Below, in pieces: positions 56,586 to 64,000 of a stretch of 64,000 bases of DNA. The stretch lies in contig NZ_MTBG01000004.1 of NCBI RefSeq assembly GCF_002119405.1, positions 62,001 through 126,000 on the forward strand. Reading direction: 5' to 3'. How positions within the stretch are numbered: position 1 is the stretch's first letter; the number at the start of each line of letters is the position of its first letter. Made by a program: the position numbers and the translations under genes. Origin of the DNA: Pseudoruegeria sp. SK021. GTDB taxonomy: Bacteria; Pseudomonadota; Alphaproteobacteria; Rhodobacterales; Rhodobacteraceae. The notes beneath the pieces are model-generated. The model had not been told where the DNA came from. It searched no databases and saw nothing but the letters and a program-made list of their open reading frames with translations.

Positions 56586-57683
56586 TTATTGGACAGCGGC
56601 CTGCCAGAACCGGAACCGGGACTGGCCGGTGACTTCGCGCACCAGACCGAGCCCTTCAAACCGGGTCATGTTCCGCTGAACCGCAGCGCGCGAGGATCCG
56701 GTTTCGTGCTCCAGCATCGGCGCCGAGGCCAGCGGCCATTGGGTCAGCGCCTGAACCAGATGACGCGGGGTCCGCCCGGACAGGTCCTTGATCGCCTCAC
56801 CGGCGCGGGTTTGCCAGACCTCCATCCGGTCGCATTCCATCAGCCCGCGCAGGGCGGCGTTCTCTACCCCCTGATACCACGCCTGCAAACACGTGCCCGC
56901 CGGGGCCACTGCCCGCAGCGCATCGGCCCCGCCCAAGGCCAGCGGCACAAAGCCCAGACCGGCGCGCCGCAGGGCCTGCGCCGCCATCCGCGAGGCCACA
57001 ATCGCGCCTTCAAGCTGGGCATCCTCGCCCGACATGCCCATCCGGCGCCAGCCGATCCAAGCCAGCGCAGCCCGGGTCAAGGGATGCAGCGCCTCTGCCT
57101 GTGCCAGTGAGCCCCGCCACTCCTGCGCCAGCGCCTCAAACTCGGCGCCCATGGGCCGGGTCATCAGATCCGGGTCCGTTGACGCGTCGTTGACCGGCTC
57201 CCGCCCAAGAAAACCGCTGAGATCGGCCAAATCCATGGCGGTATCACGTTCCAGCCGTCGCACCGCCCACGCTGCCCGGGCCATGGCTTGGCCGTCTTCT
57301 CCGGCCCCCGAAAGGCGCAGGACCAGAAACAAGGCCAGACGATCCACCGCCACCCGGTCCCCCAGATGCCAACTCAGATCGGCCACTTCCATACAGATCA
57401 AACGGCGTCGCCAACCGGGCGGACCTTGCCGCACGCGTTCGTCCAGCGCCCCAAGCGCCATGGCCGCCCGGGCCAGCAATTGCGCATTGGCCGCCTCGGC
57501 CTCGCCCCAGTCGCTGGTTCTGGACACAGTGGGCCGCGCCGCCACCGGCCATGGCAGGTCCACCGGTGACATGCCCTCGTCTGGGGCCGCCGGCATGAAC
57601 CACAGATCCTCTTCGCCCAGCGGATCGGGGTCATAAGGACCGCGCCCGGTCGCATCGATTAAAGGATAGGGTTTACGTGCCAT
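56586..57683 (-). CDS. Unassigned protein with C-terminal winged-helix-like region
   Basis: 365 residues, soluble, Ala/Arg/Leu-rich, no signal peptide. I do not recognise it with certainty. The C-terminal 60 residues (PLASAPMLEHETGSSRAAVQRNMTRFEGLGLVREVTGQSRFRFWQ) have the pattern of a helix-turn-helix plus wing. The pattern ARAAMALGALDERV and ALAWIGWRRMG loosely recalls RHE_PE00001/DUF1612 proteins of alphaproteobacteria, some on repABC replicons. It lies between the bhcC-glc genes and the glycoside ABC operon, all on one strand, and could regulate either. Confidence 0.6.
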   Translation of the reverse strand: MARKPYPLIDATGRGPYDPDPLGEEDLWFMPAAPDEGMSPVDLPWPVAARPTVSRTSDWGEAEAANAQLLARAAMALGALDERVRQGPPGWRRRLICMEVADLSWHLGDRVAVDRLALFLVLRLSGAGEDGQAMARAAWAVRRLERDTAMDLADLSGFLGREPVNDASTDPDLMTRPMGAEFEALAQEWRGSLAQAEALHPLTRAALAWIGWRRMGMSGEDAQLEGAIVASRMAAQALRRAGLGFVPLALGGADALRAVAPAGTCLQAWYQGVENAALRGLMECDRMEVWQTRAGEAIKDLSGRTPRHLVQALTQWPLASAPMLEHETGSSRAAVQRNMTRFEGLGLVREVTGQSRFRFWQAAVQ

Positions 57684-57753: not shown

Positions 57754-58812
57754 TCACGATGCGGACGGCACCGCCTGCCCGTCCGCATCGAAGAAATGCA
57801 GATGCTCGGCTGCACATTGCACCCCGACCCGGTCGCCCGGACGCAGCACCGTGTCGCCGGACTCGCGGACGGTGATTTTGCCCTCGGCACCGCAATCGAC
57901 GATCACAAAGGTATCCGACCCAAGATATTCGGTCACATCCACCGTGCCGTCGATTTCGCCAGTGCCCTCAGGCCCCAACACGATATGTTCAGGACGAATG
58001 CCCAGCTTGACTGCGGCCTTGGGCCGATCATAGGCCCCGCCGCGCCCGCCGGTCAGATTGAACCGACCGTCACTGGTCGTGCAATCCAGCACGTTCATCT
58101 TGGGCGAGCCGATGAACTGCGCCACGAACAGATTGCCGGGCCGTTCATACAATTCACGCGGACTGCCGACCTGCGCGATCACACCACCCTCCAGCACCAC
58201 AATCCGGTCGGCCAGCGTCATCGCTTCGACCTGATCATGGGTGACATAAATCATCGTCGCCCCGAGGGTCTGATGCAGCTTGGCGATCTCATAGCGCATC
58301 TCGACCCGCAGACTGGCGTCGAGGTTCGACAGCGGTTCGTCAAACAAAAAGGCAGTCGGGTCCCGAACAATCGAGCGCCCGATCGCCACCCGTTGCCGCT
58401 GCCCGCCAGACAGATCCTTGGGACGGCGATCCAGCAGATGATCCAACTTCAGCACCCGGGACGCGTTGCCAACCTTGTCTTCAATCTCGGCCTTCGATGC
58501 ACCAGCGGTCTTCAGGCTGAAGCCCATATTCTCGCCCACGGTCATATGCGGATAAAGCGCATAGGACTGGAACACCATCGCCAGCCCCCGCTTTGAGGGT
58601 GGCTGATCCGTGGCCACCTTGCCATCCAGCAACAGATCCCCGCGCGAGATTTCCTCTAGCCCGGCAATCATCCGCAGCAGCGTGGACTTGCCACAGCCCG
58701 ACGGGCCGACAAAGATCACAAATTCGCCCGGTTCAATGCTCAGGTCGATCCCTTTGATGACCTGCGCATCGCCATACCATTTCTCGACGGCCTTCAGTTC
58801 AATCGCACCCAT
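57754..58812 (-). CDS. Carbohydrate ABC transporter ATP-binding protein (UgpC/MalK type)
   Basis: 352 residues: Walker [11 protein letters not shown]-loop [12 protein letters not shown], signature [33 protein letters not shown]-loop [10 protein letters not shown], and C-terminal TOBE/OB domains (about 240-352). This is the MalK/UgpC/MsmX class energising CUT1 sugar importers. It begins 1 bp after the glycosidase gene stop with its ribosome site inside that gene. Last gene of the transporter operon. Confidence 0.94.
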
Positions 58813-58813
58813 C

Positions 58814-60109
58814 TCAAGCCCCCTTCTGTGCACTGGGCGAAGCCCAGCCAAGCCAGACCGCCGCGGTCCAGGTGAATGTGCCGCCGCCCGCGGGCGTGCC
58901 GTCGAGCGGGCTGAAATATTCCGCAAAGCCATGATCCGCGATCAAAGCTGCGGTATCGTCCCGAACCTGCGTGGCAAGATCGGTCAGACCGGCATCGGCC
59001 AGCCCCATGCCGATCATGGTGTTCATCATCCCCCAGACCGGACCCCGCCAATAGCGCATGTGATCGAACAGCGGACCCTCGGGGTCATAGCTGGGCACGC
59101 CATAGGTCACCTTGGACAGGATCCGGGCAAGCCGCGCTTCGGTCTTCGGGCTGGAGACCCCGGCATACCAGCACAGGAACGACGCGTTCGACGGGCTGCC
59201 CGCCAGTTCGCCACTGCGCAGATCGCGGGCATCATAAACCCCGACATCGTCGTTCCACAGGCTTTCGACACCGGCTTCCAATTCCGCAATCCAACCATCG
59301 ATTTCAGTGGTGTCATGCCCCAAGGTGGTGCCCAGCCATTTCAGGTCGCGATGCGCCCGCAGCAGGATAAAGGTCATGGTCGGATCGGCCACCCGGAACG
59401 GGCTGTTGGCCAAAATCTCGGCCTCGTCCCAGTCACAGGCGCGGCCAAACTGAACCAGCGTGATATAGCAATCGTAATCGCGCTTGGTGGGCCGCATGTC
59501 CGGGTTCACATGGCTGGTATCGCGGCGGGTATAGGGGCCGACATTGCTGGTATCGATCCCCTTCAGCGCCCCATCCCAATCAGGCGCATTGTCCCGGCCG
59601 GATTCCCAAGGATGCGTGATGCAGCAAGCGCCGCTTTCGCAGCGATGCTGATAAAACCAGCGGTGCCATGCCAGCAGCTTGTCATAAAGCGGCGCCATGC
59701 GCGGTGCACCGGCCTGCGGGTCCCGCTCAAAGATCGCCCGCGCCATGGTCGCGGCAACCGGCGGCTGGCTGATCCCGGACGAGGGGATCGTCTCGCCCGC
59801 ACCCCAGACATCCGGCCCGGGGAAATAGCCCGCATCTTCGCGGTGAAACAGGATATGCGGCACCATACCATTGGCCCATTGGCCCGAGAACAGGGTCTCA
59901 AGCTCGACCCAAGCTCGGTCGAGATCAAAGGCGGCAAAGCCCCAAGCGGCAAAGGCGCTGTCCCAGTTCCACTGATACGGATACAGGCCCTCGGTCGGCA
60001 CGGTATAGCCGCCCCGGTCATTGCCGCGCAGAATGGCTTTGGCCCGGGCGTCCAGCTCTGCCGTGGTTGCTGCGTCGTGATTGGCTGCAAGTGTCATTGC
60101 TTGGGTCAT
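58814..60109 (-). CDS. MGH-type glycoside hydrolase (GH63-like; glucosyl/mannosylglycerate hydrolase family)
   Basis: 431 residues of the (alpha/alpha)6-barrel family that includes GH63 and mannosylglycerate/glucosylglycerate hydrolases and trehalase-like enzymes. Recognisable blocks: [56 protein letters not shown] and [29 protein letters not shown]. No signal peptide, so it acts on an imported glycoside, perhaps the compatible solute glucosylglycerate. It sits inside the ABC operon, overlapping the permease stop by 4 bp (ATGA). Confidence 0.85.
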
Positions 60110-61378: not shown

Positions 61379-62623
61379 TCACAACCCTTCCTCCTGACTG
61401 ATGAAGCGGAAGAAGAAGACCGAGAACAGCAGCAGGCAGGCGAAGATCACCACCGCCACAGCGGCCCCGGCCCCGATATTGCTGATCGCAAAGGCCTGTT
61501 CATAGACATTCACGGTCAGCGTCCGGGTCCCGGCATTGCCGCCCGTCAGCAGGAAAATGTCGTCGAACTTGTTGAAGGTCCAGATAAAGCGCAGCAGGAA
61601 CAACACGCTGAGGATACCCAACAGCTGCGGCAGTGACAAAGCCCGGAATTGCTGGAACGGCGACGCCCCATCCATTTCCGCCGCCTCATACATATCGGTG
61701 TCGATGCTTTGCATCCGGGCCAGAATGAACAGGAAGGACAGCGGGAAATAGCGCCAGATCTCAAAGACCGTGACCATGATCAGGGCCAGTGGCCGCTCGC
61801 CGAAGAAGTTGATCGGCGTGTCGATCGCCCCCATCTGCAACAGCAGCGCATTGGCCGAGCCGGAAAACGGATCAAACAGCGTCACCCAAGTAAAGGCCAC
61901 TGCGATCACCGGGGCGACATAAGGGAACAGGAACAGCCCCCGCATAATGCCCTGCCCTTTAAAATCGCGATCCAAGATCAGCGCCGCCATCAATCCGACC
62001 ACCAACGCGCCGATGGTGCCGACGATGGTGTAGAACAGCGTCACCCACAGAACCGAAAAGAACTCATCGGCGCTGAACACCCGGGCGAAATTTTCCAAGG
62101 TGAAGGTGCCGTTGAACAGCACCGAATTGCCGCGTCCGGTCAAAACCGCCGCCGTATCGCGCACTTCGGCTTCACTGTCGACGAAGCTTTGGCTGGCGGT
62201 GACCGGCATCCGCATCCGTTCGCTGAAGCCCGCCTCCCAATCGCCCAGATCACAGCTCAGTGCGGCGCCATCCAGCGCACAGCGCGGGTCCAGTTCGGTG
62301 ATCGTCAAGCCGTCGGGCAGCACATCTGTCAGACGGACCCCGGTCACCGGATATTCCCGGCTGGAATTCTTCAGGCGATATTCCAAGGTCGCTTCGGCAC
62401 CGGCTACATCCAGATCGCCGCGCACCCGTTCATAGGCTTCCGGGGCAGGTGGACGCAGATCGGCCAAGCCGATCGGTTTGAAACTGATCCAGAAGATAGC
62501 AATCAGCGGCAAAATGATCACGATCGCCACACTGATCAACGTCGGGGCAAGAAGCCCCCACGCCAAGCGTGCCTCTCGGGCTTGCAGGGGGCCTGTGCCT
62601 GCGGGCGGTATCGAAGAAGTCAT
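61379..62623 (-). CDS. Sugar ABC transporter permease (MalF type) with DUF11-like periplasmic insertion
   Basis: 414 residues. The first helix (about 25-48) is followed by an insertion at about 60-170 before the family block FTLENFARVF, where other permeases have 10-20 residues. The inserted stretch (EATLEYRLKNSSRE, VTGVRLTDVLPDGLTITELDPRC, SCDLGDWEAGFSERM) follows the DUF11 beta-sandwich pattern, with Cys115 and Cys124 possibly bonded. The rest is a normal permease with EAAEMDGASPFQQFRALSLPQL. The insertion should lie in the periplasm and may touch the solute-binding protein. It precedes the MalG-like gene by 58 bp. Confidence 0.88.
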   Translation of the reverse strand: MTSSIPPAGTGPLQAREARLAWGLLAPTLISVAIVIILPLIAIFWISFKPIGLADLRPPAPEAYERVRGDLDVAGAEATLEYRLKNSSREYPVTGVRLTDVLPDGLTITELDPRCALDGAALSCDLGDWEAGFSERMRMPVTASQSFVDSEAEVRDTAAVLTGRGNSVLFNGTFTLENFARVFSADEFFSVLWVTLFYTIVGTIGALVVGLMAALILDRDFKGQGIMRGLFLFPYVAPVIAVAFTWVTLFDPFSGSANALLLQMGAIDTPINFFGERPLALIMVTVFEIWRYFPLSFLFILARMQSIDTDMYEAAEMDGASPFQQFRALSLPQLLGILSVLFLLRFIWTFNKFDDIFLLTGGNAGTRTLTVNVYEQAFAISNIGAGAAVAVVIFACLLLFSVFFFRFISQEEGL

Positions 62624-62682: not shown

Positions 62683-64000
62683 TTATTCGATCTTTGCGAT
62701 CTCATCGTTCAGCGCGGCAACCGTCTCGGGGCCACTGCGCGCGCCATCAACATATTCACGCACCAAGCGGTTGATGACTTGGCTGTTGATGATTTTCGAG
62801 GCCAGCGCCAGTTGGTCATCCTCAACCCCCCAGCGTTGCGCCACATCCAAACCACCGACGATCTCGTCGATCATCACTTGGTCGTACAACTCGCCCAGCG
62901 GCGCCTTGCGATCCACCCCGACCGGCAACTCGGCCCAGCCGTCGATGAACATCTGCGGCGAATCCTCGGTGCCGCGGCGGACCGGGAACTTGCCTTCCGG
63001 CGCGATCGACAGCGTGTCGAGATAGCCCTCGCCCATGCTGTATTCGACAAAGTCGATGGCTGCATCGATATCGGCATCCGAGGTGATCCCGAAATACCGC
63101 AGATCGCCCCACGCCGCCCCATCCGGGTTCGAGGGACCGGCAAAGTTGGTCACGATGCCGGTGGCGGCGGCCAACTCACGGGTGGTGGGATCGTCATTGA
63201 TGGTCGGCGGCGCGCTGTCCCGCAGGCCCGCCAGCTCATCCAGAATGAACGGCGACCAGATGATCATCGCGGCTTTGCCAGCGAAATACAGCTCGCGCGA
63301 CTGCTTCCAGAACAGCTCGCCATCGGGCGAGGCCTCGACCAGACCTTTATAGAAGTCCAGAACCTCGATGGTTTTGGCCTCGTCCAGTTCCTGCAATCCG
63401 TCCGGGCCGACCGGCGAGACGCCATTGGCGAGGAAGACATGCTCCAGCACCTGACTCATAAAGCCTTCGTCCACTTTGGTCGCGGCCACAAAGCCATAAA
63501 TCTCTGGCGGGTTGTGCAGCGCAGCAATGGCCGCGTTCACATCGGCATAGGTGGCCGGGGCCGCCAGTCCGGCAGCGTCAAACAGATCCTTGCGGTAAAT
63601 GATCATCTGGGTCCAGCCGTCCACCGGCACCGCCGCCCAGCCATCCTCAACCGCTGCCATCGCCAATGCGCCGGGCGCAAAGGTGTCCGCACCAAGGTTT
63701 TCGATCACCTCGGTTGCCGCATCCGTATCCAGAATTCCCGCCTCGGCCCATGGCAGCGCATATTGCAGCGTGTGGTAGATCACATCCGGCAGGTCGCCCG
63801 CCGCGTAGGCCGCGGTGGCGCGGGTACCGAGATCGGTTTCCGTCACCGGGATCACCTCAACCTCGGTGCCGGTTTCGGCGGTAAAGGCCTTGGCCATTTC
63901 CTGTTGCACGGCCAGTCGCTCTGGCTGTTCCTCGGTGGTCCAGAACCGGATCGAATCCGCCCCGGCAGTTCCCGCAAGCAGCGCCAGCGCCGTCGCGGCC
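62683..64000 (-). CDS. ABC solute-binding protein (family 1), 5' end missing
   Basis: The gene runs off the right edge; 438 residues to the stop are visible. Translation across the edge begins within a signal peptide (ALALLAGTAGADSIRFWTTEEQPERLA), so only the first few codons are missing. The body is an extracellular solute-binding protein family 1 (MalE type): FDAAGLAAPATYADVNAAIAAL, AAMIIWSPFILDEL and the C-terminal KIINSQVINRLVREYVDG. It leads the operon SBP-MalF-MalG-glycosidase-ATPase and should bind a glycoside in the periplasm. Confidence 0.9.
   Translation of the reverse strand, partial: AATALALLAGTAGADSIRFWTTEEQPERLAVQQEMAKAFTAETGTEVEVIPVTETDLGTRATAAYAAGDLPDVIYHTLQYALPWAEAGILDTDAATEVIENLGADTFAPGALAMAAVEDGWAAVPVDGWTQMIIYRKDLFDAAGLAAPATYADVNAAIAALHNPPEIYGFVAATKVDEGFMSQVLEHVFLANGVSPVGPDGLQELDEAKTIEVLDFYKGLVEASPDGELFWKQSRELYFAGKAAMIIWSPFILDELAGLRDSAPPTINDDPTTRELAAATGIVTNFAGPSNPDGAAWGDLRYFGITSDADIDAAIDFVEYSMGEGYLDTLSIAPEGKFPVRRGTEDSPQMFIDGWAELPVGVDRKAPLGELYDQVMIDEIVGGLDVAQRWGVEDDQLALASKIINSQVINRLVREYVDGARSGPETVAALNDEIAKIE

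Follow-up and report, generated by a model that had tools for sequence, protein, structure and literature searches.

The window, a 64,000-nucleotide stretch of contig NZ_MTBG01000004.1 of Pseudoruegeria sp. SK021, ends with a set of minus-strand genes that would encode a CUT1 sugar importer made of a periplasmic binding protein, MalF-type and MalG-type permease subunits, an MGH1-like glycoside hydrolase, and a MalK ATPase (Table 1). A candidate LacI-type regulator, identified by eye upstream in the same contig (L147, 536..1780), would belong to the same system. The reading frame located downstream from malK (56586..57683, minus strand) displayed weak kinship to proteins of the DUF1612 / RHE_PE00001 family with an HTH at the C-terminus; every match scored under the curated cut-off.

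Table 1. Position of the importer genes and of the features of the MalF-type subunit in the window.
Feature	Position	Strand	Basis
Periplasmic sugar-binding protein	62683..64000, start beyond the window	minus	SBP_bac_1, E = 4.7e-17
MalF-type (CUT1) permease, 414 aa	61379..62623	minus	Six hydrophobic helices and one inserted DUF11-type domain
DUF11-type beta-sandwich domain, residues 60-165, helix 1 / helix 2 gap	62129..62446	minus	DUF11 profile matches, domain model, 9ifr fold match
Cys115 to Cys124, predicted cross-strand hairpin pair	62252..62281	minus	Domain model and conservation
EAA motif region, cytoplasmic coupling loop (E313 A314 A315 xxx G319)	61631..61687	minus	Sequence
MalG-type permease, 404 aa	60106..61320	minus	PF00528 on residues 219-394, E = 7.3e-21; N-terminal extension of ~125 aa
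MGH1-like glycoside hydrolase	58814..60109	minus	PF22422, E = 5.5e-118
MalK/UgpC-type ATPase	57754..58812, likely start 58812; longer ORF listed	minus	PRK11650, E = 5.5e-137, match starting at residue 41 of the longer listed ORF

The MalF-type subunit displays the hallmarks of CUT1 permeases of this type, i.e. a BPD_transp_1 domain (PF00528, residues 207-408, E = 4.6e-15 in the Pfam search), six core helices, and an EAA-X(3)-G motif, which is the form given for the coupling loop in the literature (PMC3150292). The hydropathy peaks were located at residues 28-46, 199-217, 229-247, 282-300, 329-347, and 387-405. Among sequences of the PDB, the best match was SugA (4.9e-27), followed by MalF (9.4e-19). 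Since the EAA motif marks a cytoplasmic loop, counting the helices back from this motif would place the segment connecting helices 1 and 2 on the periplasmic side of the membrane.

The preliminary description of this DNA had proposed that a DUF11-like domain follows the first helix of the permease, in a stretch (62114-62446, minus strand) that corresponds exactly to residues 60-170. Pfam, profile-profile comparison, and a structural model all agreed with this proposal, confirming that a DUF11-type domain is present in a sugar permease. In the Pfam search, DUF11 (PF01345) matched residues 77-160 with an E-value of 2.9e-3 for the whole protein and of 2.6e-4 for the segment alone, the score of the latter (21.7 bits) being under the curated cut-off of 24.6 bits, as a borderline single copy. 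DUF7933 ranked second on the same permease (E = 1.4e-3). Extension of the search to 30 aligned permease domains (the window and 29 other loci) detected DUF11 at E ≤ 1 in 27 of them, with a best value of 1e-7, and the related DUF7933 in 24, with a best value of 1.2e-5. Conversely, the profile of the permease domains retrieved proteins with DUF11 repeats from further genomes of the phylum (six matches in genome G759, E = 8.5e-8 to 1.0e-6). Seven repeats from four loci recruited by this profile were aligned, and all seven were afterwards confirmed as DUF11 by Pfam; comparison of the permease domains with these seven repeats gave a profile-profile probability of 98.3 over 82 columns. Searches of solved structures returned chance rows only for the permease-domain profile (YicC, E = 0.8) and one weak row for the DUF11-repeat profile (a type IV pilin, E = 0.11). 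The structural match described below was thus reached through the fold and not through the sequence.

The preliminary description had made its proposal depend on the presence of a beta-sandwich. The AlphaFold2 model of the domain, based on 30 sequences, is a beta-sandwich comprising eight strands of at least three residues each, which cover residues 61-165, and one short helix (pLDDT of 84.4). The number of strands falls within the range of seven to nine reported for the CnaA-like/Ig-like beta-sandwich of DUF11 in a structural study (PMC12617251). The model of the full-length permease was poor in the helices (pLDDT of 57.5) and was used solely to verify that the domain remains folded, which was the case (blocks at 85 to 91 over residues 61-150). 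The best Foldseek match of the domain model was 9ifr (E = 7.6e-5), the first characterized DUF11 domain, renamed CLIPPER by its authors (PMC12617251). The same structure ranked first by VIA-align (Z of 10.2, rmsd of 2.5, 105 aligned residues). Integrin, macroglobulin, and cellulose-binding folds followed within 1 Z of 9ifr, so that the fold taken alone only indicates an Ig-like domain; the predicted fold and the sequence taken together point to DUF11.

The list of structural neighbors bears on the possibility that the domain contacts the envelope or a ligand, i.e. that it binds peptidoglycan, the outer membrane, or a sugar, and acts as a sensor or as a local sugar trap. Cellulose-binding and chitin-binding modules are present among these neighbors, and DUF11 domains are domains of surface proteins according to the structural study (PMC12617251). 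However, the carbohydrate-binding modules score within about 1 Z of integrins and macroglobulins, and the similarity therefore reveals a common fold rather than a function. We regard this explanation as distinctly improbable.

Conservation was analyzed in 111 distinct sequences, which were selected for bearing the domain and for this reason provide information on its residues but cannot reveal its loss. Arg57, Asn86, Cys115, and Cys124 were invariant, and Glu65, Arg68, Asp100, and Pro103 were each retained in 108 sequences. The two cysteines face each other in a predicted hairpin, the strands of which span positions 64-67 and 70-78 in the numbering of the domain model, and, as judged from the strand register, probably form a disulfide. 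The same pair was found in six of the seven aligned DUF11 repeats (present in L143, L144, and L145, absent from L146), indicating that it is not special to permeases.

The opposite was observed for the covalent bond that braces the solved CLIPPER domain, a Lys-Asn isopeptide bond presumably catalyzed by an Asp residue (PMC12617251). In the alignment with DUF11 repeats, the column of the Lys residue corresponds to position 65 of the permease, which is occupied by Glu in 108 of the 111 sequences, by Ala in two, and by Lys in one. The permease domains are gapped at the column of the Asn residue. Based on the spacing observed in 9ifr (58 residues after the Asp), this Asn would be expected at about residue 158; among residues 155-159, Asn was found in one of the 111 sequences at position 156 and in one at position 157, and was elsewhere outside the eight commonest residues. 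The putative catalytic residue, assigned by its position, is Asp100. Replacement of the Lys implies that the isopeptide bond cannot form in nearly all permease domains. Thus, the set of residues that defines CLIPPER in the narrow sense, a Lys and an Asn assisted by a catalytic Asp, was not found for the permease domains in the 111 sequences. Since some DUF11 domains are devoid of the bond, as stated in the same report (PMC12617251), its loss excludes the domain from the narrow CLIPPER class and not from DUF11. The permease domain would therefore have lost the Lys that braces the DUF11 stalks of adhesins and kept a probable disulfide hairpin.

Overall, the domain resembles 9ifr and the DUF11 repeats by its sequence profile, its beta-sandwich, and its hairpin cysteines. 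It differs by its context, a single copy within a polytopic permease instead of tandem copies in an adhesin, and by the replacement of the isopeptide Lys by Glu65. The preliminary description was right in considering this setting as unusual: the structural report documents DUF11 as a domain of adhesins and of surface proteins (PMC12617251).

The position of the domain in the permease was compared with that of P2 in MalF by aligning a profile of 30 permeases with the latter protein. Positions 15-45 of the profile aligned with MalF residues 62-92 (0.9 bits, a weak but collinear match), and positions 171-402 with residues 260-507 (E = 5.4e-22 for the chain). P2 consists of residues 91-271 of MalF (PMC3150292). 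Because helix 1 and the core align collinearly on both sides of this region, the alignment, although weak for helix 1, indicates that the insert and P2 occupy the same slot between helices. This is at variance with the preliminary description, in which P2 was thought to be located in a different place. For SugA, positions 12-50 aligned with residues 21-59 (4.8 bits) and positions 171-403 with residues 68-294. The gap between helix 1 and the core comprises 120 profile positions (51-170) in the permeases analyzed here versus eight residues in SugA. Thus, SugA-type CUT1 permeases (7cad and 8ja7) provide the best sequence match of the core in the PDB but contain no domain in this gap.

Occupancy of the same slot was not accompanied by sequence similarity to P2. 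The MalF_P2 profile (PF14785) gave no row for the permease of the window at E ≤ 10 in the Pfam search and no match in the genome of the strain, and hhalign comparison of the permease domain with a shallow alignment of three P2 sequences gave a probability of 0.1. The search for profile similarity between the insert and P2, which the preliminary description had envisaged, was therefore negative for these three P2 sequences, and homology to P2 was set aside at the level of sequence profiles. MalF was absent from the 50 matches listed by Foldseek and from the 50 listed by VIA-align, which is not evidence for a different fold. P2 itself was rare in our sample, with three occurrences in 150 genomes of the phylum and, among 14 control genomes, an occurrence in E. 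coli alone. The permease of the window and the P2-containing MalF of E. coli and Salmonella (PF14785) are thus both MalF-type permeases in which, as far as the alignment indicates, one and the same slot holds a periplasmic segment, but they differ by the sequence family of this segment, its size (~105 residues here versus ~180 for P2), and the clade of the permease. The independent route suggested by the preliminary description therefore looks likely, based on the separate clade described below and on a profile unlike that of the three P2 sequences.

To survey the frequency of the fusion, domain-bearing frames were searched for in 248 genomes of the family, each of another genus. Full-length, permease-length frames were found in 56 of these genomes, including that of Pseudoruegeria sp. 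SK021. This number of full-length open frames is accounted for neither by chance nor by an assembly error, and the possibility of a misassembled or pseudogenic insert, raised in the preliminary description in case the segment were absent from close orthologues, was ruled out. In a draw of 385 genomes from the class, permease-length matches were detected in 10 genomes, seven of which belong to other families. In a draw of 398 genomes from the phylum, 22 genomes contained matches, which were of permease length in 16, all 16 from the same class, and were located in other, DUF11-like frames in the remaining six. Genome G210, which encodes one of the closest DUF11 permeases, also contains a frame of 3202 residues (L049 and L050; G210:C6) that the domain profile matched twice, weakly (E = 7.4e-5 and 8.0e-4), and the translation of which reads like tandem repeats.

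A pattern scan limited to one genome per species identified 317 relatives, of which 80 were kept for analysis. As judged from their titles, all 80 were alphaproteobacterial, including members of Limimaricola, Yoonia, Salipiger, Thalassospira, and Kiloniellaceae. Scoring of 172 loci revealed that the domain was present in 137 and absent from 35. The two groups were separated by their core scores, the lowest value for a domain-bearing locus being 286 bits and no locus devoid of the domain exceeding 183 bits. A search of 240 genomes of the class with the core only (threshold E of 1e-30) did not identify a close core without the domain: the five matches with at least 54% identity were all in frames of 426 to 438 residues, and the next matches were at most 41% identical. 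A tree was constructed from the core columns, excluding the domain, from all 35 loci devoid of it and from 29 loci hand-picked for spread among the 137 that bear it. The domain-bearing permeases formed one clade (100/100). Three MalF proteins containing MalF_P2 were located outside this clade on long branches, and a long-branch warning makes the position of the plain permeases in the tree, including that of the P2-containing MalF, unsure. In the simplest reading, the domain would have been gained once, in an ancestral alphaproteobacterium, within the periplasmic loop connecting helices 1 and 2 of the MalF-type subunit.

The domain might be a chance acquisition that persists as a passive, tolerated spacer. 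In agreement with this possibility, divergence has been more rapid in the domain than in the remainder of the permease (mean pairwise p-distance of 0.436 versus 0.142). However, invariance of Arg57, Asn86, and the two cysteines, the near-invariance of the four other residues mentioned above, and the failure to detect a close core without the domain in the 240 genomes of the class all argue against a passive role, which we consider as highly improbable.

The gene neighbors of the permease are conserved. Among 80 named loci, the binding protein was present in 79, the MalG-type subunit in 78, MalK in 75, and the hydrolase in 67. For 9 of the 13 loci lacking the hydrolase, the genes encoding MalG and MalK are adjacent, leaving no room between them; the contigs of the remaining four (L085, L090, L097, and L120) end either ahead of the permease pair or immediately past it. 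Six of the nine loci with adjacent MalG and MalK genes are from strains named Salipiger or Alloyangia, and inspection of the frames surrounding the nine loci revealed nothing informative. In Thalassospira marina, the annotated gene order is LacI, binding protein, permease, permease, 'hypothetical', and ATPase, the 'hypothetical' occupying the position of the hydrolase and the permease being annotated as 'sugar ABC transporter permease'.

The hydrolase provides an indication on the substrate. It matched the sequence shared by 2z07 and 4wva of Thermus thermophilus over 406 residues (375.6 bits), and five mycobacterial hydrolase sequences with lower scores (202 to 210 bits). 4wva is a mannosylglycerate hydrolase (PMC6608630). 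The score obtained with the glucosylglycerate hydrolase equivalog NF047898 (334.6 bits) was below its cut-off of 550 bits. The enzyme of the operon is thus closer to the mannosylglycerate hydrolase of Thermus than to the glucosylglycerate hydrolase of mycobacteria. Judging from these sequence relationships, the product of 58814..60109 is probably a hexosylglycerate hydrolase, and the substrate of the importer is therefore probably a hexosylglycerate.

The MalG-type partner is also unusual, since its N-terminal extension contains three clear hydropathy peaks (residues 13-31, 70-88, and 90-108) ahead of the six core helices. Three to four extra helices are predicted, the fourth stretch being weaker and identified by reading. 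Matches to this extension were found in 11 of 61 genomes of the family (G000-G060), comprising all 10 genomes with a DUF11 permease and genome G025, for which the match is doubtful (weak, E = 8.9e-4, with an in-frame stop). In the contig of a metagenome-assembled genome (L082), two frames, each 269 residues long (stop to stop), correspond to the MalG-type gene, perhaps as the result of a frameshift.

The domain may have been acquired independently as a periplasmic module on which the cognate binding protein docks, analogous to P2, and we give this proposal an even chance. P2 of MalF contains a segment in direct contact with MalE (PMC3150292). Docking is the simplest role for a folded domain that sits in the slot of P2 with a dedicated binding protein encoded alongside, and it is plausible on these grounds. 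According to this proposal, the domain would project into the periplasm and, in a P2-like manner, hold or orient its binding protein above the pore.

Covariation of the domain with the other components of the importer was evaluated by comparing pairwise distances in 64 of the 80 operons, 16 being dropped for a missing or short partner. After removal of the contribution of the other components, the partial correlation between the domain and the binding protein was 0.37 (bootstrap 5-95% interval of 0.25 to 0.51). Values obtained in five variants of the analysis were 0.37, 0.34, 0.20, 0.26, and 0.27 for the binding protein and 0.13, 0.17, 0.36, 0.32, and 0.35 for the MalG core. The MalG core thus exceeded the binding protein in three of the five variants (rank, and both variants without five divergent loci). 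Partial correlations were 0.17 to 0.19 for MalK, -0.05 to 0.09 for the hydrolase, -0.04 to 0.13 for the MalG extension (five variants), and -0.07 to 0.02 for the core of the permease itself. A quadratic control gave 0.32 for the MalG core, 0.27 for the binding protein, 0.18 for MalK, and -0.03 to 0.07 for the rest. Scanning of the binding protein in 60-residue pieces did not identify a hot spot (0.04 to 0.18). The distances of the domain therefore follow those of the binding protein and of the MalG core more closely than those of the hydrolase, which is equally variable (mean pairwise p-distance of 0.411), an observation that is suggestive only. Since the correlation with the MalG core is of the same size, the signal lacks specificity for the binding protein.

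Similar correlations with the MalG core are a point against docking, as are the values obtained for MalK, the lack of a hot spot in the scan of the binding protein, the existence of SugA-type permeases without the domain and the lower conservation of the domain (mean identity to the window of 48%) in comparison to the binding protein (76%) and the permease core (83%). SugA and other CUT1 permeases work with a binding protein. The correlation with the MalG core (0.13 to 0.36) would also be expected if the domain packed against the periplasmic side of MalG, or against the extra helices of this subunit, and stabilized the assembled transporter. The co-occurrence of the MalG extension with the DUF11 permease in 10 of 10 genomes, and otherwise once and weakly among the 61 genomes, is in favor of such a brace. 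In contrast, the distances of the extension do not follow those of the domain, and SugA-type relatives exist without a domain of this type. We regard a role as assembly brace as unlikely. Docking of the binding protein remains our preferred reading.

We found no published description of this architecture in the open-licence literature, searched by titles and the beginning of abstracts. A broader reading, which we hold tentatively and judge a little short of evenly balanced, is that P2 was invented convergently: an Ig domain of adhesin stalks would have been recruited by alphaproteobacteria into the loop that harbors P2 in the MalF of enteric bacteria, together with extra helices in MalG, and the binding protein would be pre-docked. 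Among the periplasmic extensions of sugar importers, MalF-P2 has been studied most. Fixation of another, apparently unrelated domain in the slot of P2, seen here in 56 of the 248 family genomes, would allow the role of such extensions to be examined in a natural replicate. If the two are convergent, the need for a periplasmic docking domain in some importers could be tested with two unrelated solutions. A role in transport would be added to DUF11, which is documented in adhesins and other proteins of the cell surface (PMC12617251). The operon marks a probable route for the uptake of hexosylglycerates. Hexosylglycerates are compatible solutes of algae and cyanobacteria.
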